NCBI GenBank assembly: GCA_029448655.1
Contig: JACCLO010000003.1
Span: forward strand, 1,488,001-1,552,000
DNA length: 64,000 nt
Direction of reading: 5' to 3'
Source: Wolfiporia cocos
Lineage: Eukaryota; Basidiomycota; Agaricomycetes; Polyporales; Phaeolaceae
In this document: piece after piece, positions 24,134-63,869 of the stretch
How positions within the stretch are numbered: the stretch's first letter is position 1
Layout: each line of letters starts with the position of its first letter
Notes under the pieces: model-generated
Told to the model about the DNA's origin: nothing
The model's input: the letters and a program-made list of their open reading frames with translations, nothing else
Databases searched by the model: none
Made by a program: the position numbers and the translations under genes

Positions 24134-25195
24134 ATGTCGACGACTCGCCACCAACTTCCCCGCCGTACCGCGACCCCCGGCGATACAGATCGTCGAGAAG
24201 GCCGACCGCGAGGTACGCCACCAAGAAGGTACTCCCCCCAGCATCTGCAGATTAGACACGCCCTCCTCTGGTACAGGGCCGAGGGACCTTTTGCTGGCCG
24301 AGCCGATGGCTGGTCGGCCCTCTTCGACATCGCGCAGGACCTCACCCACGTATACAGCTCGTACCAGAACATCACCGAGGACCTCGTCCGAATGGAGGGG
24401 CAGATCAGAGCGCAGAGGGAGGGACTCGAGCTACTCACCGACAGACTTATCGACTGATTGGCCGCCACCACGACGGCCCGACTACGACACGTGCTCAACG
24501 ACTTCGAGGATCGCAAGCACGTTGCTCCCAATCGACCCGAATACACACCGCGACCCGCCCGCTTTTTCACCCCCGACGAACGACGCCGAGTTGCAAGGCC
24601 GTTTGATTTTATGGAGGGCGATAGAGTATTATTTCGGTTGCCTACCGAGACTCAGAGGGCCCGCCGAACAGGAGTTAGAGACCCGACGCCACGTATTTCT
24701 GGTATGGGAGGCAACGGGAGACGTGAACCACCTGCACGCCCGACGAGCCCTAGGGCTACCCCAGCGCGACAGCGAAGAGCGAATAGCACACCGCCTATTC
24801 GATGATCTCCTTCAGTGCAGAGTATTACCCGCGAGGAGTTTGAGCGAGGTGCGAGGGAGCACGAACGAGACACCGCCTCCCTACCAACGTGGGCCGCACG
24901 AAACCTCCACCGAGCCGCACACCACTGGAGGTACCAGCATAACGAATACCTCCGCGATATCCCTTCCCTACGGGTACCAGCGAGGCCCTCACCTGAACAG
25001 CCGTGCCGACAATGTGGTTCCGCTAACCACTGGATCCTCGACTGCCCCGATTATATTTGCAGAACTTGTGGGCTCAATCAACCAGGTCATCGACAGAATG
25101 AATGCCGCCAACACTTCGTATGGCGAACTCCTACGACCCCGTCCCTCAGCGGGAACCGCGACATTTACAACGAGCAGGACGCCGAGGCACTCTGA
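24134..25195 (+). pseudogene. ORF3 of element A: overlapping zinc-knuckle protein, two stops
   Basis: Same length (1062 nt) and start (MST) as the intact copies in C and E, in the -1 frame of pol. Broken by TGA at 24455-24457 and TGA at 24803-24805; C has CGA at both places, so CpG C-to-T changes explain both. Conserved parts remain readable: the helical N-terminal domain (LQIRHALLWYRAEGPF to LNDFED-like) and the C-terminal CX2CX4HX4C plus CX2CX6HX4C knuckles (about 25006-25110). See the element C copy for the full description. Confidence 0.75.
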
Positions 25196-33760: not shown

Positions 33761-35758
33761 ATGTCCTCCACCTCCTCCGTTAGCACTCCCCTCGCTCCCC
33801 GCAAGATGCGCCTCCGCTCAGAAGGCCCGGTGACACCGGTAGCTGGTCCCTCGGGAACCCAGCAACTGGTGACGCTGGAGCACCTAAGCGAGGGAGAAGA
33901 AGAAGAAGAGGAAGGAGAAGAGGAAATGCCGGAGTTCGCTCCCCCGCAAAGGGAATCTCCGACCAACCCCATGGGAACACGCCCAGGCTCCCCCATTGCC
34001 GGATATCCACCGGCTCGTCGAACTCGCCCTATCGGGCCCGCCACCACCCTGGAAATGGAATTTTCGGGTCCGACACGACAAACCAATGTCGCTGTCGAGA
34101 ACAACCTCAAAGCGTACCTCCCTGAGGAGGAACACCACAAGGTGGATGGGTCCCTACATGGGCCAATCATCGACGCCGCCGTACAACGAAGTGCGGCCAT
34201 CTCCCACGACACCACCGACACCCTCGGTCGAATGGTGCACGCTCGCCTGGAGCGAATCCACGGCAGAATCGACTCCCTGGTTGGGCAATCCAGGGCCATC
34301 GAACAAAAGGCCCAAGACGAGCTACATGAAGCAGTCAATTCGGTCCGAAACGAGGTACTGTCCACAATGGTGGACCTCGGCAAGGAACTCCGACAGGAGT
34401 ACACCGCCAAGTTCTCCGAAATGGAGAAACAGCTCCGAAGGGACTACCGGTCCCGGCTTGACGACCTCGAGGATGCGTTTGCCGAGCGCATGGAGAAGGT
34501 TGACGAGGAACTTCGGAGGATTCGCAAGAATCCCTCCGTTCCCAACCCTCCCGGCGTCCGCACGCCCCCGGAAGAACCCACACCGGCCCCCGGTCATGCT
34601 CAAGCCAGAGCAGCCGAGGCCGCTGCCGCCGCTCAAGCTGCAGCTGCTGCTGCAGCAGCCGTCGCCCCGCAGATTCCAGGTCTGCCTCAAAACCTGAAAA
34701 TCCCCCCTCCCCCCGAATTCTCTGGGTCATCTGGAAAGGTGACTGCACAGGAATGGGTGGAGAAGATGGGCCTGTACTTCGGTACGCTCAGGGTCTACGA
34801 TGACCATGACCGTATCACCACGGCCCTCTTCCGCGTCACAGGGGACGCATACAAGTTTTTCTCGCCTCTCATCAAGAAGGCAGGAAACGGTGAACCTCTC
34901 GGCACCTGGGAGGACTTCACCAAATCCGTAATGGTGCAATATGGGAAGATGACGGATAAGGAGATCGCGAAGAAGGAAATTCGCGGCTACTACGGCACGA
35001 AGGGCAAGGAACTGGCAGAATCGAACTATTTCAATTACTGCGAACGGTTCCGCACCCTCGGCCGGCTCTCCGAAACCGCCAACGAGACTCTGGTGTGGGA
35101 ATTCACCGAGACTCTCCCCGAAAAGGTTAAGGACACCTTAAACGTCCTCGGCAAGACTCCGTTCTTCAAGGCCCCGACCGACATCGAACCTCTGATCGAC
35201 TTCGCTCTGGAAATGTACCAAACGTCATATCCAGACAAGATCAAGGGCTCGATCTTCGAGAAGGTCGGCAAGAAGGACTCGGCACCTGCCGAAAAGAAGG
35301 AGACGTCCTCCGCTTCTGCAAAGAAGTCGGAGAAAAAGAAGGACAAGGGAAAGGCGCCCGCCAAAGCCCCCGCCGACACCACCAACGCCGTCTGCACATA
35401 CTGCAAGCAGACAGGACATTACTTCAACAAATGTCCTAAGCTTGCGGCAGACAAGGCCGCGGGAACATTCGTGCCTGCCGCTCAGCGGGCCGAGCAACAA
35501 AGGGCGAAGGATGCAGCTGCCGCGTCTGGAAAGACCACGGCTGCCCCTTCGGGTAGTGGAAAGGGACAGGCTTCTGGCAAGAAGCCGTACTCGGCGCCCC
35601 CCGCGGATGGCAAGACGTATCGTGCCCGAACGATCTGGGAAGAAGTGACGGCTGACTCAAGCTCAGCAGGACCCTCGGCCCCCGCCACCACCGTCGCCAA
35701 TGTCGGGACCATCTCGGTTCCCCTCGCCCCAACCACACGTCTCGAAGACGTTCTGTGA
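33761..35758 (+). CDS. Gag of element B
   Basis: 665 aa. Order: Ser/Pro-rich N-terminus with an acidic Glu run (about 45-60); a helical/coiled-coil segment (about 150-270, with ARLERIHGRIDSL and KELRQEYTAKFSEMEKQL); an Ala-rich stretch; a capsid-like domain from about 315 (PPPPEFSGSSGK, EWVEKMGLYFG, FTKSVMVQYG, YCERFRTLGRL, ETLPEKVKD); a Lys-rich linker; one CCHC knuckle CTYCKQTGHYFNKC (about 548-561); and a Pro/Ala-rich tail. ATG 33761 lies in a reasonable context (CACAATGTC). The stop at 35756-35758 lies 59 nt inside the pol ORF, which is in the +1 frame. Confidence 0.92.
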   Translation: MSSTSSVSTPLAPRKMRLRSEGPVTPVAGPSGTQQLVTLEHLSEGEEEEEEGEEEMPEFAPPQRESPTNPMGTRPGSPIAGYPPARRTRPIGPATTLEMEFSGPTRQTNVAVENNLKAYLPEEEHHKVDGSLHGPIIDAAVQRSAAISHDTTDTLGRMVHARLERIHGRIDSLVGQSRAIEQKAQDELHEAVNSVRNEVLSTMVDLGKELRQEYTAKFSEMEKQLRRDYRSRLDDLEDAFAERMEKVDEELRRIRKNPSVPNPPGVRTPPEEPTPAPGHAQARAAEAAAAAQAAAAAAAAVAPQIPGLPQNLKIPPPPEFSGSSGKVTAQEWVEKMGLYFGTLRVYDDHDRITTALFRVTGDAYKFFSPLIKKAGNGEPLGTWEDFTKSVMVQYGKMTDKEIAKKEIRGYYGTKGKELAESNYFNYCERFRTLGRLSETANETLVWEFTETLPEKVKDTLNVLGKTPFFKAPTDIEPLIDFALEMYQTSYPDKIKGSIFEKVGKKDSAPAEKKETSSASAKKSEKKKDKGKAPAKAPADTTNAVCTYCKQTGHYFNKCPKLAADKAAGTFVPAAQRAEQQRAKDAAAASGKTTAAPSGSGKGQASGKKPYSAPPADGKTYRARTIWEEVTADSSSAGPSAPATTVANVGTISVPLAPTTRLEDVL

Positions 35759-38700
35759 AGAACACACCAGCCCCGCAGCGGCTGGGAGTGTACAGCGCCC
35801 TGAAGAAGCGCACCTCTACGAAGAGGCTTCACAGAGACCCCTTATCTTGTGGGAAGATAGGGCGGTCGTACGTCACCCGGTATCCCATCTCGGTATATTC
35901 GGTAACTCGGCAATGGACTTTGCCCGGAGGACAAGGACACTAGCTACACGTGCCCCTCCTGTACAATACTTTCATCCTGACCCGCTCGCGTTGAAGTTTT
36001 TCACTTTGTATAATGTACATGGAAACGATTCTCGAGACGACAATAAATCGTTCTCTATCGAAGTGGAATTGTGGGTATATGGAAAGAAAGTCAACGCCAT
36101 GGCATTAATCGACACCGGTGCATCAATAAGCGTCATAGATAAGAAACTCGTCCATGAGGAGAAGTTAGTCACTCAGAAACTACCTTCGCCTCTCGAGATT
36201 CGCAACGCCGACGGTACCTCTAATACCGCCGGTAATATCAATATGGCAGTAAAAGCTTATATGGTGCACGAGGAACACAAGTCCACCGAATTCTTGTACG
36301 TAATGGACGTACAGAATGCGGATGTGATCCTCGGATATGACTGGTTCCTGAAACACAACCCGGACTTCAATTGGCCGGAAGGAACCTTCACATATCGGTG
36401 TACGGAAAAATGCAAACATGGCAAACGGGTTTCGATTTCTGAGGAAGAGGACGAAATCGAACCCCGCAACATCTATCAGATCATCAATGACTTTCCAATA
36501 GATTTTCTCGGCTTAGAGGAGCCGGAGAATCCCTTTGTCGCTTGGGTGAACACCCTTGACGAAGGAACGGAACTCCTTATCGATGCCATTCAGTCGATAA
36601 CGGAGAAGTCGGATGATGAATTCCTGACAGATGCGGATCTCCAGAAATGGAAATCCTTGGTTCCGGAGGAATACCAGGAGTTTGGTCCCACGGTATTTTC
36701 TCAACGCGCATCCGAAAGGATGCCCGAGCGGAAACCATACGACCACGCCATCGACTTCCCCGATGACGCGGTACTACCGCCCCCAAGTAAGGCATACAAG
36801 ATGTCTCCTCAGGAGGCGAACTCGCTAGATCAGTGGATTCAGGAAGAGTTACGGAAGGGCTACATCCGACACTCAAAATCCCCGATCGCGAGTCCGGTCT
36901 TCTTCGTCCCTAAAAAAGATGGCGGAGCCCGAATGGTAGTCGATTACCGAAAGGTGAACGACTTGACCATTAAAAATAGGTACCCTCTCCCACGCATAGA
37001 CGAGCTTATCGATAAGCTTAGCCAGGCTTCGATATTCACGAAGCTCGACTTGCGTTGGGGTTACAACAACGTAAGAATCAAGGAGGGAGATGAATGGAAG
37101 ACCGCATTCATTACGCCTAACGGCCTTTACGAAGCCGTAGTCATGTACTTCGGTTTCTGTAATGCACCCAGCACGTTCCAACACATGATGAACGATATTC
37201 TAGGTGACCTTATCAGAGAAGGAAAGGTCATTGTCTACCTAGACGACATCCTTGTGTTCGGAAACGACCTGTTGGAACACCGTCGTATTGTCAAGCAAGT
37301 ATTACAAATCTTGCAAGACAACGACTTGTTCGCGAAGCCTGAAAAGTGCTTTTTCGAACAAAGCAGTATTGAATACCTGGGAATGATCATTTCCAAAGGA
37401 AAAGTCGAAATGGACCCTAAGAAGGTAGCCGGTGTAATGGACTGGCCTACACCTGCCAAGGTGAAGGACGTCCAAGCCTTTGTTGGCTTCGCCAACTACT
37501 ACCGTCGGTTCATTAAAGATTTCTCCAAAGTGGTTAAGCCGTTAACCGAACTGTCCAAGAAAAACACGCAATGGAACTGGGGACCCGAACAAGCGGAAGC
37601 CTTCCAAACTCTCAAGGAAGCTTTCACATCGGCTCCAATACTCCGGATCCCAGATCAGGAGTCCCCGTTCCGCGTGGAAGCGGATTCTTCCGATTACGCA
37701 ACTGGTGCGGTGCTATCACAATACTCTTCGGAGGATAAGCTCTGGCACCCGGTAGCCTTTTACTCGAAATCTCTATCAGCACCCGAAAGGAACTATGAGA
37801 TTTACGATAAGGAGTTGCTCGCAATCATCCGTGCACTAGAGGAATGGAGACATTACCTCGAAGGACACCCACACAAATTTGAAGTATGGTCGGATCATCT
37901 CAATCTGACATATTTCAAATCGGCACAACGGCTAACCCGGAGACAGGCACGTTGGAGTCTTTACCTGACAAGGTTCAACTTCACCATGTGTCACAAACCC
38001 GGTAAAACAATGCTCACGGCTGATCCTCTGTCACGGAGGCCAGACCATGAAGAGGGGGTGGAACTCGACAATCGCGATCAAATTTTGCTGAAACCGGAAT
38101 ACTTTACGGTTAGGGCGCTAGAAGCGTCACAGCAGGAGATACAATCAGGCGACGAGGACCTTCTCCGACAAATCCGACAAGCCCTCATGGACGATCAAAT
38201 TACCAAGGATTACCAGGAACTACTGAAAAGTGGTCCCAAGGAATTCGGTAAAGATCTCCAGGAATGGAACATGGAGGCCGGATTACTCCTCAGACGAGGA
38301 AAAGTGTACGTTCCAAAAGAGCCTAAGGAATTGCGCACGAAGATTCTGGAGTTACATCATGACCATGTGACGGCCGGACACTTCGGACGATGGAAGACCT
38401 ATGAACTTCTATCACGCAATTACTGGTGGCCTGGAATGACCACGATGGTAAAGCAATACGTGGAAGGTTGTGACACATGTCAACGCATGAAGAACCACAA
38501 CCAGACCCCGTACGGACCCCTGCAACCGCTCCCAGTTCCGGAAGCACCTTGGGACACCGTCACAATTGACCTTATCGTCCACCTACCACCCAGCGGCGAA
38601 TTGAAACAATTCAATGCTATTATGGTAATAGTGGACCGGCTTACCAAACGAGCACACTTCATTCCCACGTTAGACAAGATAACGGCAAAAGAATTAGCGA

Positions 38701-40235
38701 ACCTCCTGTACCTTCGGATTTATCCGAACCACGGACTTCCGAAACAAATCATTTCGGATAGAGGCCCGCAATTCGCAGCCGCCTTATTCAAGGGATGGTG
38801 TGAGCAATTGGGAATCCAACGGTCAATGACAACCGCCTATCACCCGCAAGCGGATGGCCAGACGGAGAGAGTTAACCAGATCCTGGAACAATATCTTAGA
38901 TGTTACATCGATGTTATTCAAAAGGATAACTGGTCATGGTTTCTCCCAACGGCTGAATTCGCGTACAACAACGCGGCTAGTGAGACAACAAAGAATAGCC
39001 CATTCTTTGTCGAACTAGGAAGGCACCCTAATGCAGGACCTACGAATTTACGTCCAACACCATACACGGACCTAAATGTCATTGCTTACGAACGATGGTC
39101 AGCACAAGAACAAGCTAAGGCAGCAATGAAACTGGCTGCTGAACGCTGGTCTTGGTACTACGATCAACATAAGCGCTCGGTACCGTTTAAAGTCGGCGAC
39201 AAAGTTCTCGTTGACGCCCGAAGCTGGCAAGACTCCGAAAGAAGTCTTAGTCCACGCTATTTGGGACCATTTAGGATAATTGAACAATTATCTCCGGTCA
39301 CCTTTAGGGTACACATGGACGAGCAATACAGGGCTTACCACCCAGTATTCCACGCTTCCAAGTTGGTCATGTACAAGGACCCGGTGCATCAGAAAAAACC
39401 AGAGCCTCAACCAGAAATGGTCGACGGCGAGGAGTTATGGGAAGTCGAGAAGATCTTAGATCATCGTCTCCGCGCAGGAAGAGTTGAATACAGAATCCGT
39501 TGGAAGGGATTCGGTATCAATGACGACTCCTGGGTACGCGAAGCGGATCTCGACTCGGCATACGACATTTTGCAGGAATACAAGGCTTCACACCCTATTC
39601 CAATGCAGGATGTCCCCCTCAGGCGATCAGCTAGAAGGAAAGAAGCAGTTCATGTCTTCGACCCTGACAGCGACGACTGGGAAGCCGACGAATGCACGTG
39701 GCCAGACGACTGGCCGCAGTATCGCGAAGAATTTGCGAAGGATCCTAAGCAACGCATGGTTAGACACCCCGACGGGGGATGGATGTCAGCTGACATTAAC
39801 CAAAATGCGGATTTGAAAATCGTAGTCGGTGAAGGCGGCCGAATGCCAGAAAAGGGAACCAAGGACTCGGTTGGGTTTGACCTGTACACTGCAACAGGCG
39901 ACGTTCTGCCAGCTCACGGGCAGACAGAATACAATACCAAACTGAAAATCCAGGTACCTTTCGGCACTTACGGACGCATCGCCCCCCGCTCTAGTCTTGC
40001 CCGCAAAGGCATAGACGTAATGGGTGGCGTTATCGACCACGATTATCAAGGCGAAGTAATCATCATTCTCCGGAATCACTCCGACATATCTATTGATATT
40101 CGGGCCGGTGATAAGATTGCTCAGCTCATCTGCGAAGTGGCTAAGGACCCGCACATTACGCTACACGGAAAATCTTACTTTGAAAAGATTAAATCCGAGC
40201 GCGGTACTGGTGGTTTCGGCTCCACAGGAAAGTAA
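35700..40235 (+). CDS. Pol of element B: protease, RT, RNase H, integrase, chromodomain, dUTPase
   Basis: 1511 aa from ATG 35700, overlapping gag by 59 nt in the +1 frame; it may be made by frameshifting or internal initiation. Domains: protease DTGAS at 138-142 and ILGYDW; RT (KLDLRWGYNNVR, FGFCNAPSTFQ) with YLDD at about 513-516; RNase H (EADSS, YDKELLAI); integrase with HHCC zinc-binding region (ending CDTCQRMK), catalytic Asp in TIDLIVHLP, Asp in ISDRGPQF and Glu in DGQTERVNQ; GPF/Y module (YLGPFRI, HPVFHASKLV); a classical chromodomain at about 1246-1290 (WEVEKILDHR, YRIRWKGF, DDSWV); and a full dUTPase at about 1371-1511 (GFDLYT, PRSSLA, GVIDHDYQGEV, AGDKIAQLI, RGTGGFGST). The C-terminal dUTPase is the unusual part. 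All catalytic residues are present. Confidence 0.95.
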   Translation: MSGPSRFPSPQPHVSKTFCEEHTSPAAAGSVQRPEEAHLYEEASQRPLILWEDRAVVRHPVSHLGIFGNSAMDFARRTRTLATRAPPVQYFHPDPLALKFFTLYNVHGNDSRDDNKSFSIEVELWVYGKKVNAMALIDTGASISVIDKKLVHEEKLVTQKLPSPLEIRNADGTSNTAGNINMAVKAYMVHEEHKSTEFLYVMDVQNADVILGYDWFLKHNPDFNWPEGTFTYRCTEKCKHGKRVSISEEEDEIEPRNIYQIINDFPIDFLGLEEPENPFVAWVNTLDEGTELLIDAIQSITEKSDDEFLTDADLQKWKSLVPEEYQEFGPTVFSQRASERMPERKPYDHAIDFPDDAVLPPPSKAYKMSPQEANSLDQWIQEELRKGYIRHSKSPIASPVFFVPKKDGGARMVVDYRKVNDLTIKNRYPLPRIDELIDKLSQASIFTKLDLRWGYNNVRIKEGDEWKTAFITPNGLYEAVVMYFGFCNAPSTFQHMMNDILGDLIREGKVIVYLDDILVFGNDLLEHRRIVKQVLQILQDNDLFAKPEKCFFEQSSIEYLGMIISKGKVEMDPKKVAGVMDWPTPAKVKDVQAFVGFANYYRRFIKDFSKVVKPLTELSKKNTQWNWGPEQAEAFQTLKEAFTSAPILRIPDQESPFRVEADSSDYATGAVLSQYSSEDKLWHPVAFYSKSLSAPERNYEIYDKELLAIIRALEEWRHYLEGHPHKFEVWSDHLNLTYFKSAQRLTRRQARWSLYLTRFNFTMCHKPGKTMLTADPLSRRPDHEEGVELDNRDQILLKPEYFTVRALEASQQEIQSGDEDLLRQIRQALMDDQITKDYQELLKSGPKEFGKDLQEWNMEAGLLLRRGKVYVPKEPKELRTKILELHHDHVTAGHFGRWKTYELLSRNYWWPGMTTMVKQYVEGCDTCQRMKNHNQTPYGPLQPLPVPEAPWDTVTIDLIVHLPPSGELKQFNAIMVIVDRLTKRAHFIPTLDKITAKELANLLYLRIYPNHGLPKQIISDRGPQFAAALFKGWCEQLGIQRSMTTAYHPQADGQTERVNQILEQYLRCYIDVIQKDNWSWFLPTAEFAYNNAASETTKNSPFFVELGRHPNAGPTNLRPTPYTDLNVIAYERWSAQEQAKAAMKLAAERWSWYYDQHKRSVPFKVGDKVLVDARSWQDSERSLSPRYLGPFRIIEQLSPVTFRVHMDEQYRAYHPVFHASKLVMYKDPVHQKKPEPQPEMVDGEELWEVEKILDHRLRAGRVEYRIRWKGFGINDDSWVREADLDSAYDILQEYKASHPIPMQDVPLRRSARRKEAVHVFDPDSDDWEADECTWPDDWPQYREEFAKDPKQRMVRHPDGGWMSADINQNADLKIVVGEGGRMPEKGTKDSVGFDLYTATGDVLPAHGQTEYNTKLKIQVPFGTYGRIAPRSSLARKGIDVMGGVIDHDYQGEVIIILRNHSDISIDIRAGDKIAQLICEVAKDPHITLHGKSYFEKIKSERGTGGFGSTGK

Positions 40236-40974: not shown

Positions 40975-41405
40975 AGTTTCCTACGTTTGAGAACGAGTAT
41001 AAGACTTCTTGTTTATACAACAAGGTCGAGCTGAAGAGCTTCGACAGTAAGTACACGAGTTTATATACTACGTTAGTTTTCAGGGGTCAAGCCTGTCCCA
41101 GATGTCACCGCTACTATCTACGCTATAGTACCAAACGTTTGATAAGTATGGAGTGATATATCCGAGACGATAGATAGGAATGATGGCGGTTGAACGCCAT
41201 CTATCAGCTAATAAACGATGAACATGAAACGGTGGCAGAGTTGGATCTGCCAGCGATGAAACGCGTCCTATAGACTAGTACAACTGGGGATGCGCCCAGT
41301 AGAGTCACGAGTAGCCAGGGGAGTTGGTTGCGCAACAAGTCCCTGTATCGTATTCGACCAGTGGTGAGTTCTGCGGATGTTCGAAAAATCAAAATAACCG
41401 TAACA
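40975..41405 (-). repeat. 3' LTR of element C, inner part
   Basis: Starts with the second copy of AGTTT and completes the LTR begun at 30689; ends CCGTAACA at 41405, next to the element C polypurine tract (minus-strand GGGAGGGGCTGA, 41406-41417). Confidence 0.92.
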
Positions 41406-41459
41406 TCAGCCCCTCCCTAGGCATTCGTCGGCCTCGGCGAATTTCCCAAGTCCCCCTCT

Positions 41460-42521
41460 TCAGAGTGCCTCGGCGTCCTGTTCGTTATAGATGTCACCGT
41501 TCCCGCTGAGGGACGGGGTCGTAGGAGTTCGCCATACGAAGTGTTGGCGGCATTCATTCTGTCGATGACCCGGTTGATTGAGCCCACAAGTTCTGCAAAT
41601 ATAGTCGGGGCAGTCGAGGATCCAGTGGCTAGCGGATCCGCACTGCCGGCAGGGTTGTTCAGGCGAGGGCCTCGCTGGTACCCGTAGGGAAGGGATATCC
41701 CTGAGATATTCGTTGTGTCGGTATCTCCAGTGGTGGGCGGCACGGTGGAGGTTCCGTTGCGCCCACGTGGGTAAAGAGGCGGTGTCTCGTTCGTGCTCCC
41801 TCGCACCTCGCTCAAACTCCTCGCGGGTAATGCTCTGCACTGATGGAGATCGTCGAACAGGCGGCGTGCTATTCGCTCTTCGCTGTTGTTCTGGGGGAGC
41901 CCTAGGGCCCATCGGGCGTGCAGATGGTTCACGTCTCCTGTCGCCTCCCATACCAGGAATACGTGGCGTCGGGTTTCTAACTCCTGTTCGGCGGGCTCTC
42001 TGAGTCTCGGTAGGCAGTGGAAATAATACTCTATCGCCCTCCATAAAATCAAACGGCCTTGCAACTCGGCGTCGTTCGTCGGTGGTGAAAAAGCGGGCGG
42101 GTCGTGGTACGTATTCGGGTCGATTGGGAGTAGCGTGCTCGCGATCCTCGAAGTCGTTGAGCGCGTGTCGTAGTCGGGCCGTCGTGGTGGCGGCCAATCG
42201 GTCGATAAGTCTGTCGGTGAGTAGCTCGAGTCCCTCTCTCTGTGCTCTGATCTGCCCCTCCATTCGGACGAGGTCCTCGGTGATGTTCTGGTACGAGCTG
42301 TAAACGTGGGTGAGGTCCTGCGCGATGTCGAAGAGGGCTGACCAGCCATCGGCTCGGCCAGCAAAAGGTCCCTCGGCCCTGTACCAGAGGAGGGCGTGTC
42401 TAATCTGTAGATGCTGGGGGGAGTACCTTCTTGGTGGCGTACCTCGCGGTCGGCCTTCTCGACGATCTGTATCGCCGGGGGTCGCGGTACGGCGGGGAAG
42501 TTGGTGGCGAGTCGTCGACAT
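41460..42521 (-). CDS. ORF3 of element C: intact zinc-knuckle protein overlapping pol
   Basis: 353 aa from ATG 42521 (MSTTRHQLPRR), wholly inside the pol ORF in its -1 frame. Parts: basic Pro-rich start; helical domain at about 38-150 (LQIRHALLWYRAEGPF, IAQDLTHVYSSYQNI, RPFDFME); an Arg/Pro/Ser-rich disordered middle; a second conserved block (SITREEFERG, LPTW, YRHNEYLRDIPS); two zinc knuckles, CX2CX4HX4C (PCRQCGSASHWILDC) and CX2CX6HX4C (CRTCGLNQPGHRQNEC); and the end IYNEQDAEAL. Elements A and E have the same 1062-nt frame. Diverged element D keeps the same blocks and the MST start, so selection on this frame is likely. A nucleic-acid-binding role follows from the knuckles; the family is unknown to me. 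Confidence 0.82.
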   Translation of the reverse strand: MSTTRHQLPRRTATPGDTDRREGRPRGTPPRRYSPQHLQIRHALLWYRAEGPFAGRADGWSALFDIAQDLTHVYSSYQNITEDLVRMEGQIRAQREGLELLTDRLIDRLAATTTARLRHALNDFEDREHATPNRPEYVPRPARFFTTDERRRVARPFDFMEGDRVLFPLPTETQRARRTGVRNPTPRIPGMGGDRRREPSARPMGPRAPPEQQRRANSTPPVRRSPSVQSITREEFERGAREHERDTASLPTWAQRNLHRAAHHWRYRHNEYLRDIPSLRVPARPSPEQPCRQCGSASHWILDCPDYICRTCGLNQPGHRQNECRQHFVWRTPTTPSLSGNGDIYNEQDAEAL

Positions 42522-44599
42522 ACTATTACTGTCCTACTTTCGAGTGTCGGGGTTGTCCTGACTCTCGTCCTGTGGTAGTCTTTTATCAGTTCCTTGGAGT
42601 GCTCCAGGTTCGCCTCGTCTTCCCATGAGTTGTCGGCCGTGGCATAGCCTTTCCATTTGACGAAGTATTGATGCTTCTTTCCCTTCCATCTGTCAGCCAA
42701 GATGGCTTCGACCTCGTATTCTTCCTGTCCCTTGATGATATCAGGTGGCGGCTGTAAGTAATTGGGTCCGTGCACCCTTGTTTCTTTGAATGGTTTTAGC
42801 AAGGCGGCGTGGAATACCGGATGAACTTTCCAGCTCGTTGGTAACTGCAGCCGGTATGTCGTGGGTCCCATCTTTTCTGTGATAGTGAAGGGTCCTTCTC
42901 TTTTTGGTGCTAGCTTGTTAGACCCGTAGGGGATTGTTAGGTTCTTTGCGTCGAGCCAGACCTTGTCCCCTTTCTCAAGCTTCGGCAGTTCTCTGAGGAA
43001 CCTCCCTGCCATTCTTTTCTGGGCTAACTCATGCGCGATGAATGCCATCTTTCGCGCCTCTTTGATCTTCTTGATCCTGTCGACAGCTGCCGGGACGTTC
43101 CCTACTCTGTCATAATCTGGGAATCCTCTCGGGACATATCCTAGGATTATTTCGAGTGGCGCTGGCCGGTTTTCGGTTCGTCTGGTGTTGTGCACAAATT
43201 CGACGTCCGGCAGTCGTTGTACCCATTGGAATGGGTCGTTCATGCAATAGATGCGAAGGTATACTTCGATCTGTTGATTCATCCTTTCTGTCTGTCCGTC
43301 GGTCTGTGGATGGTACGCCGTACTCATCGCTGATTCTGTTCCCTGCAGCTTGCATAATTCCTTGAAGAGCTTTGATGCAAACTGCGGCCCTCTGTCAGAA
43401 ATGATCTTTCGGGGGATGCCATATAGCGAGTAGATTTTTCGGTGAAATATCTCTGCCGCCCCTTCGCTAGTGATCGTCTTGTCGCATGGGGTGAGAGATA
43501 TGGCCTTGGATAGGCCATGGTCGACAATCACCATCATGGAGTCGTACTTTCCGACTCTTGGCAGGTCGGTGACAAAATCGACCGAGCACTGTGAGAAGGG
43601 GAGGGCGTCTTCCCGTGTCGGTATTGGTTGCAAAGGGGGTTTCAGCGGATTCCTATCAGGTTTCATCTGTTGACAGATTGCACAGCCCCGGACGTATTCC
43701 GCTATCATTGTTCTCATGTCAGGCCACCAAAAGTGGGTCGTAACCTGTACTGTTGTTCCCCAGATCCCAGGGTGTCCGGCCGGGATCGTGTCATGGTATT
43801 TTGAGATGACGTCCCTTCGAAGGCCCTCGTCTCTTGGCACGTACATCCTGCCTTTATAGAGCAGTATCCCATCCGTTTGTTGCCATTCATCTGCGGTAGT
43901 TCTCGCGGGGAATTCGCCTGTGCCCCCTAGAGCACGGATCGCCTGTTCCGCAGATTCATCTCGATCGTTGGCGTTCTTGATTCGATCAATGATCGGGATC
44001 TGGATTGCGTGGACGACAAGTTCGTCTGGAATCATGGTGATTCCCTCGTTGTCTTCGTTGCTTTCGTCCAGGTGGTACAGCCTGGAAAGCGTGTCGGCCA
44101 TGACTAGTTTCCTTCCGGGGACGTGCTGCAATTTCAGGTCGAATTGCGAAAGGAATAGATGCCATCTCGCTTGTCGCCGATTTAGGCGCTGTGCGCTTCT
44201 CCAGTACGTCAGGTTCTGATGATCACTTCGGATCAAGATCCGATGCGGTGCTCCTTCCAATAGGTGTCGCCATTCTTCTAATGCTCGGACTATTCCGAGT
44301 AGTTCGCGATCGTAGATTTCGTAGTTCCGTTCTGTTGGTGTCAGGGATTGTGAGAGATATCCCACCGGCCGTTCGCTCCCTGTTTCATCTATCTGTTTCA
44401 GTACTGCTCCTGTGGCGAACTGAGATGCATCTGTTTCGAGGATGAACGGTTTCTCCTTGTCCGGTGTTCCTAGTGCGGGCGCCGTCGTGAATGCTTTCTT
44501 CATGAATTCGAATGCTGCCTGTTCTTTCTCCGTCCATTGGAACCCTGTCCCTGTGACCGTTTTTGTGAGGTCTACCAAGGGTCGGGCGTGCGTAGAGTA

Positions 44600-45149
44600 T
44601 GTCACAAATTATTCCACTAATAGTTTGTACTCCCTCGCTATAGGACGCACGCGCGGCGCTAGGCGTACGCCGCGCCTCTGCGCTGTAGCCACCTCCAGCG
44701 CCTCCCAGTTATTGCAGGTCACCTGGTCGTATGGTTAGCGCTGTAGGGTAGCGCGCGCCTCAGGTACCGTCACTTATGGTCACATTGTTACATGTCTTGT
44801 TACCTAGCACATGACTCATTAGCTACACGGTGCACAGACCAGTAGTTTAGGGCGGGCTCGGTAGTAGATACAAAGCATGTATATAATACGGCGAGATGTG
44901 GGCTTACACCCCATCTCTCAGATTCTCGACAATGGTGTATAACCCTTTCTCGCTTATTGCTGTGTGATCTACTGGCCCGGGGCCCATATCTCGTCTACCT
45001 TGTCTGTGAGCCGCCGCTGCCATCTCGACGTATGACATGCGTGCATGAGCCTCTGCGTTCAGCGCTGGCGCGGTGCCTTGTAGCCTCGATTGTAGGCCTG
45101 TATGGATCCCCCTGAGCCCAGGGGTCGCACAGACAGTGAGTCTGTGTCA
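44600..45149 (+). mobile_element. Solo LTR, third gypsy family, in element C pol
   Basis: 550 bp, TGTCACA to TGTGTCA, flanked by duplication GAGTA (44595-44599, 45150-45154). Carries TATATAATACG at about 44880-44890 in plus orientation, opposite to the host pol. Confidence 0.92.
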
Positions 45150-47112
45150 GAGTAGTGATCGATAAATTTCCGATAGAAGTTTGCAAATCCTAGGAAGGAT
45201 CTGACTTCTTTGAGGTTTCGGGGAGTCGGCCACTCTTTAATCCCGTTGAGTTTCGCTGGGTCCATCTGGATATTTCCTGGGGTGATGACTAGCCCCAGGA
45301 ATTCGACTCTGTCGACACCGAAAGCGCATTTCTCGGGTTTCACAAAGAGATGGTTATCCATCAATCTCTGAAGGATCCGCCGCTCCCGTTCCTTGTGTAC
45401 TTTCTCGTTTTCTGAGAAAATGAGGATGTCGTCCATATAAACGAGCACCCATCCTTCGAGGATTTCTTCTTTCAGGATTTCGTTCATCATTGCCTGAAAG
45501 GTCCTGGGTGCATTGCATAACCCGAGAAACATAACCGTGGGCTCGTACAACCCTCGGTTTGTTTTGAAGGCCGCCTTCCATTCGTCTCCCTTTTTGATTC
45601 GCACGTTGTTGTATCCCGCTCTAAGGTCCATTTTTGTGAAGATCTTTGCTCCTTTTAGCTTTTCCAGGAGTTCTGAGATCAGTGGTAAGGGATAGACGTT
45701 CTTTATCGTCCCTTCGTTCAGATATCGATAGTCTTGACAGGGTCGTAGGCCGCTGTCTTTCTTTGGGACGAAAAAGAATGGTGACGCCATCGGGGATTTT
45801 GAAGGGACTATGAATCCCTTGGCCAAGTTTTCTTTTAGGAATTCGTCCAGCGCCTGTTGCTCTTTAGGTGAGAGTGCATAGACTTTGCAGTCTTTCGGCA
45901 CGAAATCGGGTTTTAATTCAATTGCGTGGTCCCATGGTCTCGATGGGGGGAATGCTGCTGCGGACTCCTTACTGAACACCTTGGCGAAGTCCAGTAGGTG
46001 TTTCGGGACCATCTCCTCAATCGTTCGTTCTGGTTCTGGGGTTTTTTGTGCGAATTCCTGGGATTTCGTCAGCGCTTTCCTGACAGCATTGATGATTTGT
46101 ATCTTTGTTCGGAACTTCTTTCGCGTCTCCCCTTTCTTTCCTATGATCCTAGGGTTATCTTTTGCGAAGCGTCGGATCGCTTCGTACTCTTCGGGAGTAT
46201 AGAGCCGCTGCGCTGTTTCTTCTATCTGATCCGTGGATCCGAATCCTTTCTCCCCTCGTTCTGTTTCATCTAGGTCTTCGACCTCTAAGATGTCGGGGGT
46301 GAGGTGTCGTTCGAAAATTATCTGGGCTATTCGCATCCCCGGGATAATTCTATGCGCCTTGTCTGAGTAGTTGAAGACGATGGCTTCGACGTCCCCTCGG
46401 TAGTCCGAGTCTATGATTCCGGCTTGTACTACCAATCCGTGTCTGAGGGTGTTGCCTGATCGTCCGGCCAACTTTCCATACGATCCCTTCGGGATCTTCA
46501 TTTTTACTCCTGTGGAGACGAGTTTCCATCCTCCGGCGGGAATCTCGGTTTCTTCTGCGGCGTAAAGGTCATACCCCGCAGCTTCTTGGGTCCCCCTTGT
46601 TGGAATTTTCCCTTCTGGGGCAACTACCATCTCCACCGTATCCATTCGGATTGTGGCTTCCTGTTTCTTTTCTTCTGCCCCTAGTATCGATCGTACATCG
46701 ACTGTTTGGTCCTTCCAGTCGATTGTGGGGTTTTCGTCTTTCAGCCATCCATACCCTAGAATCATATTTTCTGTTCCGATTGATCCTACAAGGAATCGGA
46801 CTTTTCGCGTTTTCTGGGTCTTCGGATATCGGAGTAGTATGGTAGCTTCTCGGTCTATTCGCCCATCTTTGTTTTCTGTTCCGTCAACGTTTTTGACGAT
46901 GATCGGGTTCTTCAAGGGTTGTGTGGGCACCTTGTATTTTTCTACCACTCTGCTGTGGATCAGGTTCGACATTGCTCCCGAGTCGATTAGTGCATTGCAC
47001 TTCACGGGTTTTGCCAGCGTCATGATTACCGGGATGAAGAGGGATCGATTCTTCTCGAACGAGGTAATTACATGCGCTGCTTTCTCGGAGGGTAAGACCA
47101 TGGGCTTCCCTC

Positions 47113-48947
47113 CTAGGCAAAATCCTGTTCTTCTACGAGCCGTGCTAGGAGCTCGGGGTATTTGGCTTTCAGGGCCCTAATCGCTGTGACCGCCCTGTTC
47201 GCGGTGATGTATTCAGTCTCTTCTTCAGAGACTTCTTCGATGCGAGCTTCTTGCTCGGTTTCTTCTTCTTCAGTTTTTCGAGTAGTCCGCCTAGGGCGGG
47301 CTGGCTTCCTCGGCCTCTTTGGACAGTCTCGCGACATATGTCCTGGTTGATGACAGGTGAAGCATTTTCCCTTTTTGATGTGATCGTCCCTTTCCTGGGT
47401 GGTCATTCGATCTACATCCATCGCATTCGGATCTTTCGGTGCGGCTGTCTGTGGAGCACTAGTGCGTCCGTTGTTCTGGTTCGAGGCTTGCCAAGCCTTT
47501 TTCTTGACAAACGGTTTGTCCCGTTTCAAGAATATCTTGTACGTATTTTCATAGTACGAGGCAGCAGACTGCCATTCATCAATGGTCGCTGGTAGCGGCC
47601 GAACGCCGATGATGTATCGGGTCGTATGTTCGGATAACCCTTTCTCGAAGAGGGTTATGAGCAACGCGTTTCCGTCCGCGCTGTATTGATCGTACTGGGC
47701 CTTTCCGGCCAAGTTGTTGAACTCGGTGATATAATCATCGATGTCCTTCCTGTCCTGGGTTACGTCCAGGATCTTCTTCCGCGCCTTCTGTACCTCTTTG
47801 ATGGCTCCGAAGGCTTTCTGGAAGTCTGCATCAAACTGTGCAAGACTAGGCGGGAAGAATCGTTTCGTTTGGGGGTTCGTATAAACCCGGTGATAATTCT
47901 GTTTCCATTGGCCCGTTTTCCCCTTGTTCGAAATATAAGAGAGGATAAAGATCACTCTCTGAACGTCGTTTTGGAATGACGTTTCGTACATCGTAAACCA
48001 GGAATTGCACTGGTTTATGAAGTTCTGCATGTCGGATCGTTCCCCGTCAAATACGTCTGGGGGATTGATCTTTATCATTGGGGGTCGGTAGTACGGGTTC
48101 AGCGCCGGAGGTTGAGGCTGCGGCGCATTCGGTGGTGGAGGCCCTCCTCCTCCCGGGTATCCTCCACCCGGATTTCCTGGGTTTCCTCCGGGGTTCCCTG
48201 GATTCCCTCCAGGGTTTCCTCCTCCGGGGTTCGTGGGGTTCCTCCTCCGAGTCCTCCAGGAGGGGGGGCATTCCCTCCTCCGAGTCCGAAGTTTCCTCCC
48301 AGTCCTCCTCCGCTTGTACCTGCGGAGGTTCGTCCAAATAGGCCTGAAGGCCATGTTCCTGGGTTTGTCGTTCCCATTCCTCCGCTTGGGCTAGTCCAAG
48401 ACGGATTTCCTCCGCTACCCATTCCGGGTGCGTTCTGTGGGGGGTTTCCAAAGAGGTCTGTTCCTCCAGCCATAGGCCCAATCCCACTCTGCGCAAAAGC
48501 AGATATAAATCCTGGAGGGTCCTGTCCTCCGGTCTGGCTGTTATCTGTTCCTGTAAAGTTTCCAGGATTTCTCCCATCATCTCCGATGCGCTCAATTCCT
48601 GCCATTCCTGTGGCGCCCGAAGGCTGATTCGTATTTCCATCGGCATCGGAGGTTCTGTTGATGGTTTCGGTTTCGTTTTCGGTCAACGTCGCGGCTGACA
48701 TCGGAGGGATTTCTCCGAATCGTTCAAACGCTTCACGCGTTATTTCCCAAGCGGTCGTTCTTGCGGAGGGGTATACTTCTACCCACTTCGATGCCCTATC
48801 TTCTCTTGGAATGACAACAATTCCTCCGCGGTTACGGAAGGCTCCAATGGTGTCAGTCCACTCGTATCGGTTGAGTCTGTAGACTCCCTGAATGTCCTCG
48901 AGCAAGAGTTCAATCAGTCGTGCTGGGAATTCTGGTCCGAATATCAT
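47113..48947 (-). pseudogene. Gag of element C, one 1-nt deletion
   Basis: ATG 48947 to TAG 47113. N-terminal domain, Gly/Pro/Asn linker, capsid-like domain and CCHC knuckle CFTCHQPGHMSRDC as in element A. Comparison with A shows one base missing at about 48234 in the low-complexity linker (A has CCCCTGCGAACC, C has CCCCACGAACC), which splits it into two frames. Apart from that base the protein is conserved. Confidence 0.87.
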
Positions 48948-48981
48948 GGGCCCTTGCACCGTGGTAGGTGAGGGTGTGATA

Positions 48982-48993: not shown

Positions 48994-49704
48994 TGTTACG
49001 GGTCGAATACCCGCTCGTATATTCGGGTCGCGAATATAGATCGTTCTTCTGCACGTAGGGCGTACTAGCCGTATGCAAGGCAAATGCTCGTTAGATGCCT
49101 TCAAGGTCCTAGGTGAAGTTCCTAGGGGATCGTATAATATCCAATACGCGTTAGAGGATATAATCTGTTCAGATGCGAGTCTAATAGGATATAAGACTCG
49201 CCTAAGTCCGAGAAGTCAGTGTGCACTTCGAGGACTTAGTCGTTCGGTTGCTCGAGCGAGAAATACTGAGCGTAGTTTCCTACGTTTGAGAACGAGTATA
49301 AGACTTCTTGTTTATACAACAAGGTCGAGCTGAAGAGCCTCGACAGTAGGTACATTAGTTTATATACTACGTTGGGTTTCAGGGGTCAAGTCCGTCCCAG
49401 ATGTCACCGATACTATCTACGCTATAGTACCAAACGTTTGATAAGTATGGAGTGATATATCCGAGACGATAGATAGGAATGATGGCGGTTGAACGCCATC
49501 TATCAGCTAATAAACGATGAACATGAAACGGTGGCAGAGTTGGATCTGCCAGCGATGAAACGCGTCCTATAGACTAGTACAACTGGGGATGCGCCCAGTA
49601 GAGTCACGAGTAGCCAGGGGAGTTGGTTGCGCAACAAGTCCCTGTATCGTATTCGACCAGTGGTGAGTTCTGCGGATGTTCGAAAAATCAAAATAACCGT
49701 AACA
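48994..49704 (-). repeat. 5' LTR of element C
   Basis: 711 bp, A-family LTR in reverse orientation, followed by the duplication TGCAG. Confidence 0.93.
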
Positions 49705-49844
49705 TGCAGGTCGGCCCACAACTGTCATGACTTGACAGTTATGATGGTTGTGGGTCGGCCCACAACTGCCACAACTTGATGGTTGTAGGTCGGCCCACCA
49801 CTGCTGCAACCTGGCAGTAATGACAGTTGTGGGTCGGCCCATGA
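49705..49844. repeat. Tandem repeat between elements C and D
   Basis: Continuation of the GTCGGCCCACAACTG-type array of 30480-30688; D's LTR begins immediately after GGCCCATGA. Confidence 0.75.
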
Positions 49845-50387: not shown

Positions 50388-50442
50388 TCACCCCCCCTTC
50401 AAGCCTTCATCGCCCTCGATGAAATCCAAGCTTCACAGCCAC

Positions 50443-51522
50443 TCAGAGGGCCTCTGGGTCAGGGTCGTTGTATCCCGCATCTGTATTGGGGAGCGGAGGC
50501 GTCGGAGGGGGGATCCATACCTGATATAAGGCGCACTCACCGACGCAATGTCCTGGCTGCGTGACTCTGCAGGTGGGGCATCTGTAATCGGGACAGTCGA
50601 GGACCCAATGCCAGGGGTTACCACATCGACGGCAGGGCTCTTCGGCGGATGGTCGAGGTGGTGAGCGGGCTGAGGGGACGGCGCGAAGATACTCTCCTGA
50701 TTCGTACCGCTGGTGGTGGTGGTGGGCCCAGAGACGCTGTCAGAGCCAGGTAGGCAGCTGGTAAAGAGACTCGTCCCATCCGTCCCTCCCTCGCTCCCAT
50801 TCCTCCCGGGTAATGATCTCAACTGATGGAGATCTGTTGCTAACTCCGTCGCTAGCAGCTGCAGAGGTCGGCGAGGGGGGAGCCCTACCATCGCCCGACC
50901 CCTCTCGAACTGGGCGTCATTCATCGTCTTGTGGATGCGGAGGAGGGCGCGCTGATTCTCGAGGTCGAGGTCCTGCGGGGGCGGTCGGTACGGCAGCGTC
51001 ACGAGGTACCACATGACTGTATTCCATAAAATCGAATGGTTCTGCGATTCGATCCAGCTCGCTGTCGTCGAGTAACCAGGGGGGCATGGCTGGGACAGGG
51101 CTTCGCGTTCGTGGTAAGCGGGGCGGGCCCGCTTCGACCTCTGTGAACGCTCGCCGGATTCGCGATGGTGTCGACGCCCCGAGGTGGTCGATCCACTGAC
51201 CGATGCACCGCCCAAGCCTCTGCCACTGAAGGAGGGCTGTGCACTCGAGTTGGACGATTCTCTCTGTGACGTCCTGGTACTGGTCGAATATGTTGGTGAG
51301 TTCCTGTACGAGTTCAAATTGATCGGTCCAGGGGGTCGCCTGCCCTCCGGGGGGGATGTCGGACCTGTGCCAGGTGAGCGCATGTCTGATGCGGACGTGG
51401 GCATCCTCTGAGCAGCCGTAACACCTGCCTGTCTGGTACCCCATGCGGACTGCGAGGGATCGCCGCATCGTCGGGGCGGTAGGTCGCTCAGACGGGCTAG
51501 TTGTAGGGAGTGGCGTCGACAT
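50443..51522 (-). pseudogene. ORF3 of element D, two stops, frame otherwise kept
   Basis: Starts MSTPLPTTSP at ATG 51522 and ends YNDPDPEAL at 50443, 1080 nt. Only two in-frame TGA stops (50917-50919 and 50740-50742) and no shift. Conserved with C despite family divergence: IRHALTWHR, FDFME, SVEIITREEWERG, LPTW, EYLRAVPS, PCRRCGNPWHWVLDCPDY, CPTCRVTQPGHCVGEC. The two zinc knuckles keep every Cys and His. The Arg/Pro-rich middle is not conserved. Confidence 0.78.
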
Positions 51523-57782: not shown

Positions 57783-57814
57783 AGGCTTGCACTTCGGTGA
57801 GTGAGCTTTGTTAG

Positions 57815-57825
57815 AGCTCGACCTT
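57815..57825 (-). other. Self-complementary primer binding site of element D
   Basis: Same 11-mer as A and C (minus-strand AAGGTCGAGCT). Its complement is at 58004-57994 in the 5' LTR, about 30 nt downstream of a minus-strand TATATAA (58039-58033). It is conserved although the rest of the LTR has diverged from the A family. Confidence 0.7.
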
Positions 57826-57826
57826 C

Positions 57827-61700: not shown

Positions 61701-63869
61701 GCTCGGTCGACTTTGTCACCGACCTGCCAAAAGTCGGAAAATATGATTCCATGATGGTGATCGTCAACCACGGCCTATCCAAGGCGATCTCTCTCACCCC
61801 ATGCAACAAAACGATCACAAGTGAAGGAGCGGCAGAAATATTCCACCGAAAAATCTACTCGCAATATGGTATCCCCCGAAAGATCATCTCCGATAGGGGG
61901 CCGCAATTCACATCAAAACTCTTCAAGGAATTATGCAGGTTGCAAGGAACAGAATTGGCAATGAGTACAGCGTACCACCCACAGACAGACGGACAAACGG
62001 AAAGGATGAACCAACAGATCGAAGTTTACCTTCGAATTTATTGCATGAACGACCCTTTCCAATGGGTACAACGGCTACCTGACGTCGAATTTGCGCACAA
62101 CACCAGACGAACCGAAAACCGGCCTGCGCCACTTGAAATAATCCTAGGATATGTCCCAAGGGGATTCCCAGACTATGACAGGGTAGGGAACGTCCCGGCA
62201 GCAGTCGATAGGATCAAGAAAATCAAGGAGGCGCGAAAAATGGCATTCATCGCACACGAACTAGCCCAGAAAAGAATGGCAGGACGTTTCCTCCGAGAAT
62301 TACCCAAGCTTGAGAAAGGGGACAAGGTCTGGCTTGATGCGAAGAACTTGACGATACCGTATGAGTCAAACAAGCTAGCACCGAAAAGAGAAGGACCCTT
62401 CACCATCACGGAAAAGAGGGGCCACAACCTATTGGCTACAATTACCAATGAGCTGGAAGATTCACCCTGTCTTCCATGCCGCGTTATTAAAACCATTTAA
62501 GGAAACGAGGGTGCACGGACCCAATTACCTACGGCCGCCGCCTGATATCATCAAGGGACAAGAAGAGTATGAAGTCGAAGCCATCCTGGCTGATAGATGG
62601 CGAGGAAAGAAGCACCAGTACTTTGTCAAATGGAAAGGCTATGCCACGGCCGACAACTCATGGGAAGACGAGGGAAATTTGGAGCACTCCAAGGAGCTGA
62701 TAAAAAGCTACCACAGACTGCGAGTCAGGACAACCCCAGCACTCGAAAACCGAACAGTAATAGCATGTCGACGACTCGCCACCAGCTTCCCCGCCGCACC
62801 GCTACTCCCGGCGACGCAGACCGTTGGGAAGGATGGCCGAGAGGTACGCCACCAAGGAGGTACTCCCCCCAACACCTGCAGATCAGACACGCCCTCCTCT
62901 GGTACAGGGTAGAGGGACCTTTTGCTGGCCGAGCCGATGGCTGGTCGGCCCTCTTCGACATCGCGCAGGATCTCACCCACGTATACAGCTCGTACCAGAA
63001 CATCACCAAGGACCTCGTCCGAATGGAGGGGCAGATCAGAGCGCAGAGGGAGGGACTCGAACTACTCATCGACAGACTTATCGACAGACTGGCCACCACC
63101 ACAACGGCCCAATTACGACATGCCCTCAACGACTTCGAGGATCGCGAGCACGCTACTCCCAATCGACCCGAATACATACCACGACCCGCCCGCTTTTTCA
63201 CCACTGACGAACGACGCCGAGTTGCAAGGCCGTTTAATTTTATGGAACGTGATCGAGTATTATTTCCACTGCCTACCGAGACTCAGAGAGCCCGCCGAAC
63301 AGGAGTTAGAGACCCGACGCCACGTATTCCTGGTATGGGAAGCGACGGGAGACGTGAACCATCTGCATGCCCGACGAGCCCTAGGGCTACCCCAGCGCGA
63401 CAGCGAAGAGCGAATAGCACGCTGCCTATTCGACGATCTCCTTCAGTGCAGAGCATTACCCGCGAGGAGTTTGAGCAAGGTGCGAGGGAACACGAACGAG
63501 ACACCGCCTCCCTACCCACATGGGCAGCACGGAACCTTCACCGAGCCGCACACCACTGGAGGTACCGGCACAACGAATACCTCCGCGACATCCCTTCCCT
63601 ACGGGTACCAGCGAGGCCCTCACCCGAGCAGCCTTGTCGACAATGTGGTTCTGCCAACCACTGGATCCTCGACTGTCCTGACTATATTTGCCAAACTTGT
63701 GGGCTCAATCAACCGGGTCATCGACAGAATGAGTGCCGCCAACACTTCATATGGCGAACTCCTACGACCCCGTCCCTCAGCGGGAACGGCGACATCTACA
63801 ACGAACAGGACGCCGAGGCACTCTGAAGGGGGGAACTTGGAGAATCTGTCGAGGCCGACGAATGCCTAG
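58743..63869 (+). pseudogene. Pol of element E, two shifts and one stop
   Basis: The usual pol ATG is ACG (58743). Protease DSGA, dUTPase ([39 protein letters not shown]), RT with YMDD, RNase H ETDAS, integrase ([25 protein letters not shown]), GPF/Y, chromodomain. A 1-nt loss in an A-run at about 59175 shifts the frame between protease and dUTPase. A net 2-nt loss at about 62415-62450 shifts it in the GPF/Y module. A TAG at 62910-62912 ends the extension in the pol frame while remaining Val in ORF3. The central 59198-62500 frame is 1100 codons long. Confidence 0.87.
62765..63826 (+). CDS. ORF3 of element E: intact overlapping zinc-knuckle protein
   Basis: 353 aa from ATG 62765 (MSTTRHQLPRR) to TGA 63826, exactly the length of the element C copy and fully open even though E's pol is shifted twice and stopped. 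Upstream the frame is also open to 62597, but the Met shared with C and D is at 62765. Domains as in C, with both knuckles complete (PCRQCGSANHWILDC, CQTCGLNQPGHRQNEC). Differences from C are scattered and mostly conservative. Confidence 0.82.
   Translation: MSTTRHQLPRRTATPGDADRWEGWPRGTPPRRYSPQHLQIRHALLWYRVEGPFAGRADGWSALFDIAQDLTHVYSSYQNITKDLVRMEGQIRAQREGLELLIDRLIDRLATTTTAQLRHALNDFEDREHATPNRPEYIPRPARFFTTDERRRVARPFNFMERDRVLFPLPTETQRARRTGVRDPTPRIPGMGSDGRREPSACPTSPRATPARQRRANSTLPIRRSPSVQSITREEFEQGAREHERDTASLPTWAARNLHRAAHHWRYRHNEYLRDIPSLRVPARPSPEQPCRQCGSANHWILDCPDYICQTCGLNQPGHRQNECRQHFIWRTPTTPSLSGNGDIYNEQDAEAL

Follow-up and report, generated by a model that had tools for sequence, protein, structure and literature searches.

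The window, that is, the whole stretch of 64,000 nucleotides analysed here, belongs to a genome of 64.43 Mb in 76 contigs, in which it occupies G000:C23:1488001-1552000, and contains an LTR retrotransposon, element C, whose features are listed in Table 1. The element has the two LTRs and, in order, the reverse transcriptase, RNase H, integrase and chromodomain of a Ty3/gypsy chromovirus. The Pfam models RVT_1, RT_RNaseH, Integrase_H2C2 and Chromo scored above their cutoffs and rve scored 30.5, just under its cutoff of 32.6. For Gag, Retrotrans_gag was above the cutoff and Ty3_capsid just below it. A third open reading frame, ORF3, is found after the chromodomain and before the 3' LTR; its ATG lies about 15 codons past the end of the chromodomain match (pol residue 679). 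The pol stop is located 43 nt beyond the ORF3 stop and 7 nt before the 3' LTR match, and the 3' end of the element has nearly no spare non-coding space.

Table 1. Features of element C and further copies of ORF3 (positions refer to the window)
Feature	Position	Strand	Remarks
ORF3 of element C	42521..41460	minus	353 aa + stop; ATG at 42521; -1 frame of pol
ORF3 segment A (residues 1-145)	42087..42521	minus	N-terminal; long predicted helix; ORF3-frame constraint
ORF3 segment B (residues 146-223)	41853..42086	minus	Pro/Arg-rich linker; ORF3 frame nearly free, pol frame constrained
ORF3 segment C (residues 224-353)	41463..41852	minus	predicted helices and two zinc knuckles; ORF3-frame constraint
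First zinc knuckle (ORF3 residues 291-304)	41610..41651	minus	C-X2-C-X4-H-X4-C; sub-threshold Pfam zf-CCHC_2/zf-CCHC
Second zinc knuckle (ORF3 residues 309-324)	41550..41597	minus	C-X2-C-X6-H-X4-C, non-canonical spacing; read from sequence
Conserved pol-tail domain, pol frame, overlying the ORF3 linker	41789..42103	minus	predicted helical, low confidence
3' part of pol	41417..44605	minus	RNase H, integrase, chromodomain (pol residues 630-679), tail to residue 1062
5' part of pol	45059..47101	minus	protease, dUTPase, reverse transcriptase; separate open frame in copy C
gag of element C	47113..48354	minus	own single CCHC knuckle
3' LTR of element C	40975..41409	minus	blastn match extent; 97.7% identical to 5' LTR
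5' LTR of element C	49274..49709	minus	blastn match extent
ORF3 of element E	62765..63826	plus	1062 nt, open
ORF3 of element A	24134..25195	plus	1062 nt, two stops
ORF3 of element D	51522..50443	minus	1080 nt, two TGA inside

The initial annotation had described ORF3 as a frame of 353 residues at 41460..42521 that is shifted by -1 relative to pol and nested in its 3' end. Both the coordinates and the nesting were confirmed, and the frame lies on the minus strand, for which no indication had been given. Its account of the copies (C and E intact with 1062 nt, A of the same length with two stops, D of 1080 nt with two stops) was equally correct. The MST start, the DxEAL end and the motifs that it named are present, FDFME being replaced by FNFME in E.

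Other features were noted in these elements. In element B (35700-40235, plus strand) a dUTPase, recognised from the translation, forms the C-terminal end of pol, the place taken in C by the tail and ORF3; the dUTPase of element C lies between the protease and the reverse transcriptase. A stretch of about 528 bp in the pol region is 96% identical between C (44623-45149) and D (52185-52709), and in C it sits where the two pol frames part. Moreover, an open frame lies upstream of gag and overlaps it in both C (48099-48959, minus strand) and D (57114-57851, minus strand). The starts of the two are recognisably similar, the C copy had no Pfam match, and the frame could represent an N-terminal extension of Gag or a further overlapping gene. 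At 20254-21005 a 188-nt unit is repeated in tandem in four copies, which are 73-100% alike.

Families of ORF3 in the genome

Several families of ORF3 are present genome-wide, with well over 100 copies. The searches scored the best candidates only, and the loci recovered therefore lean to conserved copies. With the ORF3 of C as query, 115 copies were scored of 633 candidates, all of them full-length at 92% identity or more; 100 of these were free of internal stops and 15 had stops (counted by eye; lower bounds from the best-scoring copies). The ORF3 of D recovered D copies, subfamilies at about 72-79% identity, the families F1 (70%) and F2 (65%), and C (about 40%). Family F1 has 22 full-length ORF3 copies, 20 of them without stops in a count by eye. 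Between C and D, tblastn gave 39.6% identity in the ORF3 frame (E 8e-60) and 29.5% in the pol-tail frame (E 6e-14), and between C and E 92% and 80%, respectively. Among the 150 matches listed, the open frame holding the pol-tail domain has, by a count made by eye, 1704 codons in at least 15 matches of F1, 1727 in at least 4 of D and 1731-1743 in at least 13 of C.

Element D (49845-58369, minus strand) has LTRs that are 99.8% identical, yet its ORF3 contains two TGA codons. A copy with the same ORF3 protein, stops included, is found on the other strand at a distance of about 33 kb (G000:C23:1572114). Nearly all of the stops listed inside ORF3 copies genome-wide are TGA, a pattern that C-to-T changes at the CpG of CGA arginine codons could account for.

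Selection is divided along the overlap

The openness of the two frames was evaluated by holding the protein of one frame fixed, shuffling its synonymous codons and counting the stops in the other frame. With the pol tail fixed, 10.4 (C), 8.2 (D) and 9.6 (F1) stops were expected in the ORF3 frame and none was observed (P <=0.0003). With ORF3 fixed, 4.3, 4.4 and 2.9 stops were expected in the pol frame and again none was observed (P 0.003, 0.002 and 0.02). The procedure was calibrated on five single-coded stretches of the window. At the ORF3 offset it over-expected stops in all five (observed/expected 83/85.8, 14/18.7, 18/21.4, 13/21.6 and 13/18.1; 141 observed against about 166 expected, an excess of about 15%), so that the P values for ORF3 openness are somewhat optimistic, which does not change the verdict that this frame is not open by chance. 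At the pol offset the calibration was good (61/65.9, 40/36.8, 35/33.7, 27/23.0 and 13/11.7). The tests of selection described next are independent of this calibration. For segment C taken by itself, the openness of the pol frame does not go beyond chance (P 0.24-0.45), and the third frame has 6-19 stops across ORF3. Over the overlap both frames stay open beyond chance.

In this overlap ORF3 position 3 corresponds to pol position 2, and pol position 3 to ORF3 position 1, so that constraint in ORF3 and constraint in pol show up as opposite patterns of change. In columns 1-150 and 241-360 the substitutions among D, F1 and F2 fall mostly at ORF3 position 3, and in columns 151-240 they fall mostly at pol position 3; in this middle part the counts at ORF3 positions 1/2/3 are 32/17/16 for D-F1, 35/16/14 for D-F2 and 17/7/7 for F1-F2. 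The segment borders were chosen after this mosaic had been seen, and the variants within families C and D constitute a fresh test.

Omega was obtained by classing changes according to their effect in both frames, with substitution weights that were assumed and not fitted. Seven pairs were taken among D, its 79% subfamily, F1 and F2; their branches overlap and the loci L063, L064 and L065 among them carry an ORF3 stop. In these pairs ORF3 omega was 0.16-0.55 in segment A, 0.62-1.29 in segment B and 0.14-0.37 in segment C, and pol omega was 0.61-1.56, 0.25-0.57 and 0.69-1.54, respectively. The pair formed by C and L028 agrees, with an ORF3 omega of 0.07 in segment A and 0.00 in segment C and a pol omega of 0.12 in segment B. 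Its pol omega is also low in segment A (0.42, from few changes), and pol may be weakly constrained there too. The comparisons of C with D and of C with F1 gave no segment pattern, all omegas being 0.7-1.4, and these sequences are too diverged and saturated.

Within families, variants common to at least three copies were counted in 32 copies of C and 30 of D, leaving aside the window's own C and L031; the two-copy class was omitted in D because the ORF3 of L032 is the same as that of D. At ORF3 positions 1/2/3 the shared variants of family C number 27/9/7 in the single-coded pol upstream, 10/3/25 in segment A, 9/2/3 in segment B and 5/4/29 in segment C; those of family D number 30/13/10, 10/11/39, 13/2/6 and 7/5/31. 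The comparison of ORF3-synonymous with pol-synonymous variants in segment B against segments A and C gave P 3e-4 for family C and 2e-5 for family D (Fisher). Upstream, the single-copy variants, most of which arose after insertion, are evenly spread (31/36/30 and 9/9/9); elsewhere they are less skewed and show the same tilt, strongest in segment C (7/8/17 and 12/11/22).

Purifying selection is detected in each frame, in ORF3 in segments A and C and in pol in segment B. Selection is divided along the overlap, ORF3 being constrained at both ends and pol in the middle, over some 80 codons, and the linker of each protein overlies a domain of the other. A dN/dS near 1, which the initial annotation had regarded as evidence against the gene, was not found in the outer segments, where ORF3 omega was 0.14-0.55. 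The picture of ORF3 as a constrained gene holds for these segments and needs refining for its middle 78 or so codons, which are close to unconstrained (0.62-1.29) and where the pol frame is the constrained one.

An ORF3 that is open by accident, through pol codon usage or composition, could be argued from its Arg/Pro-rich sequence and from the many young copies, in which open frames would persist. We give almost no credence to this explanation in view of the openness beyond the shuffles, the frame-specific selection replicated in two families and the stops of the third frame. ORF3 as a product of chance or a by-product was rejected on the synonymous shuffles together with the frame-specific selection between and within families. 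The pol tail as a by-product of ORF3 was rejected as well, segment B being pol-constrained between and within families and the tail lying in open frames of about 1700 codons.

Products of the two frames and their expression

The predicted model of ORF3 had a mean pLDDT of 45, with a long helix at residues 60-128 (block pLDDT 50-74, low confidence), and that of the pol-tail domain a mean pLDDT of 57, with four helices predicted at low confidence; these values were too low for fold matching of either protein. The hydrophobic content switches between the frames in step with the segments. In the pol frame it is 0.10-0.18 in segment A, 0.32-0.33 in segment B and 0.16-0.21 in segment C, and in ORF3 it is 0.13-0.17 in segment B. 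The pol-frame domain of segment B has 27 invariant positions among eight aligned sequences from C, D and F1. No protein relative of the pol tail was obtained in the protein database searches. Codon usage was uninformative as a clue to the age of the frames, the correlations (0.35-0.59) being without order and equally high in the third frame.

The eight zinc ligands of ORF3 are kept in all 41 open copies fetched and in 26 of the 28 with stops. These 69 sequences, which lean to conserved copies, are those used of the 71 fetched, L001 and L031 having been dropped from the count as repeats of the window copies C and D. The loss of the knuckles from intact copies, another observation that would have spoken against the gene, was thus not encountered. 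The spacing is canonical in the first knuckle only. For the window copy the knuckle models PF00098 and PF13696 gave 14.5 against a cutoff of 20.8 and 17 against 27, and no other Pfam model exceeded its cutoff; when 11 ORF3 members were scanned, the best E values for the knuckles were 0.0012 and 0.00049. No capsid domain (Ty3_capsid, Retrotrans_gag) was found in the window copy or in the 11-member scan. In addition, phmmer gave no match between ORF3 and the element's own Gag, the PHROGs and PDB searches gave no firm match, and no relatives were found in the scan of viral contigs. PF14319 (IS91 zinc-binding) matched 11 of the 11 members (best E 0.0005) and was below its cutoff for the window copy; it was judged to be a resemblance in the cysteine pattern and set aside.

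ORF3 had been called a Gag-like zinc-knuckle protein. The two knuckles are present, but the Gag-like label is weak, given the sub-cutoff Pfam scores and the lack of a capsid domain and of a match to Gag. Like the CCHC proteins of Gag and nucleocapsid, ORF3 has tandem knuckles near its C-terminus, and the first knuckle weakly matches the Gag polyprotein 8pug_A (E 0.026). It differs from them in having no capsid match and an X6 spacing in the second knuckle, and the element already possesses a Gag with one knuckle. ORF3 has a mildly positive net charge in C, and in D and F1 its segments B and C are negatively charged; a strongly basic RNA-binding protein is not favoured by these values. An envelope-like protein, such as the third ORFs of some other LTR elements encode, would suit the position before the 3' LTR, which in the parts of PMC5408684 covered is the site of additional ORFs, env-like ones among them, in other elements. 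Nevertheless, with knuckles in every open copy fetched and hydrophobic residues making up only 0.13-0.27 of ORF3 by segment, this assignment is very improbable.

ORF3 starts with a methionine in all 71 fetched sequences, with a purine at -3 in every one. A TAG or TAA in the third frame lies one base upstream of the ATG (42519-42525 in the window, for example) in 68 of the 71. Frameshifting is common in retroelements, and a -1 slip just past the chromodomain would make ORF3 an alternative C-terminus of Pol, giving two Pol forms that end in the tail domain or in the knuckles. ORF3 is indeed in the -1 frame, and upstream of the ATG 3 to 62 codons of this frame remain open in the 71 sequences. However, many C copies have only 4 open codons at this point, the start codon and its surroundings are conserved, and inspection by eye, in 16 sequences, of some 90 nt upstream of the ATG revealed neither a slippery heptamer (X-XXY-YYZ) nor a splice acceptor common to the families. 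We regard such a slip as unlikely.

Protein searches (4095, 7981 and 7972 candidates) gave, as the only protein relatives among these candidates, four W. cocos proteins, P0001-P0004, two of them C-like and two D/F-like, in which ORF3 segment A is joined to the pol frame at a matching place. They were compared with references from the window genome (window C for P0001 and P0002, L061 for P0003 and P0004). The identities for P0001 to P0004 were 115/156, 100/146, 126/160 and 120/160 in segment A (ORF3 frame), 38/51, 32/49, 42/52 and 33/52 over the first 55 residues past the join (pol frame, segment B), and 82/135, 74/125, 79/128 and 76/128 over the remainder (pol frame, segment C). The ORF3 frame in segment A and the pol frame in segment B are therefore mostly better conserved than the pol frame in segment C. 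At the join site a GT is present in 33/33 C sequences, 2/2 of F1, 2/3 of F2 and the 79% D subfamily, and it is missing (CCATTC) in all scorable D sequences (29 of 31) and in L066.

Gene callers can introduce short introns of this kind, and the join seems to be of such origin or, in some families, a true intron. If it were real, an intron of about 52-55 nt (a length read from the DNA of the window genome and not from that behind the W. cocos models) would splice ORF3 segment A to pol segment B; this fusion would be the functional accessory protein, and full-length ORF3 would be a by-product or a second isoform. The join in four of four proteins and the GT in C, F1, most of F2 and the 79% D subfamily agree with such a fusion. 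Nevertheless, the donor GT is missing in the 29 scored D sequences, although D has open copies (9/30), and splicing of this kind does not explain the strong ORF3-frame constraint in segment C (0.14-0.37). The D sequences without donor lower the weight of the short intron, and we consider the fusion quite improbable. The invariance of the pol frame inside the supposed intron was not used as evidence, since the FDFME of ORF3 covers the same bases.

The explanation that we favour, with some reserve, takes ORF3 to be a true third gene in a group of chromodomain Ty3/gypsy elements; its -1 frame lies fully over the 3' end of pol, and its product would act as an accessory protein. Judging from the sequence, this product is most probably small, binds RNA and has an mRNA of its own. 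Two separate proteins would then be produced from the overlap. Pol would bear the tail domain as a C-terminal extension of the integrase and chromodomain, and this tail could, as a guess, modify the action of either. ORF3 would be translated from its own conserved ATG on a subgenomic mRNA that is probably spliced or internally started; a subgenomic RNA is probable because pol does not end before ORF3, and in LTR retrotransposons the expression of ORF3s from spliced messages is typical, according to PMC5408684. The protein would probably oligomerise through its long helix, bind nucleic acid through the two zinc knuckles and serve in the replication of the element as an accessory nucleocapsid-like or RNA-handling protein.

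Relation to other overlapping genes and retroelements

In compact viruses, overlapping genes that divide the constraint between them are a familiar phenomenon. In HIV-1, rev lies over env (PMC9119678, parts covered), where, as here, two proteins come from one stretch and the constraint is divided between the frames; cases of such division are on record in which a structured product is paired with a disordered one (PMC9119678). No sequence kinship with this system is claimed, and here the blocks alternate over the full overlap of 353 codons in a fungal retrotransposon.

ORF3 is an additional LTR-retrotransposon ORF, and what is apparently new about it is that it overprints pol over its whole length, with the domains of the two proteins interleaved. 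No such ORF was described in the open-access literature, by titles and openings of abstracts, among the matches listed. The LTR elements of bdelloid rotifers also have an extra gene beyond gag and pol, with a dUTPase in three of four retrovirus-like lineages (PMC5408684). Their additional ORFs are env-like, GDSL, DEDDy, coiled-coil or transmembrane, whereas here a zinc-knuckle ORF3 lies wholly over pol; the terms 'overlap', 'CCHC' and 'zinc knuckle' do not occur in the parts of that text covered. PosPlaTy3-5 of Postia placenta is a chromodomain Ty3/gypsy element with a dUTPase between the protease and the reverse transcriptase, like element C, and in Polyporales chromoviruses the dUTPase is found at different places in pol (PMC2864245). 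The legend of Figure 3 of this 2010 survey refers to an unspecified additional ORF in fungal elements, which may or may not be the same gene as ORF3, so that prior art is possible. The parts of the survey covered place the C-X2-C-X4-H-X4-C motifs in Gag and describe no overlapping gene.

More tentatively, a fungal LTR element may have acquired, through overprinting of its pol at the 3' end, an accessory gene in the style of retroviruses; the domains of the two proteins would be interleaved, and the product would be an RNA-handling regulator separate from Gag. As the four W. cocos models join both frames, gene callers may misread the accessory genes of such elements. A high-copy LTR element with three alternating blocks over 353 codons in several families is a natural data set for the sharing of DNA by two proteins. 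Moreover, these observations suggest that fungal elements can give rise to retrovirus-type accessory genes.
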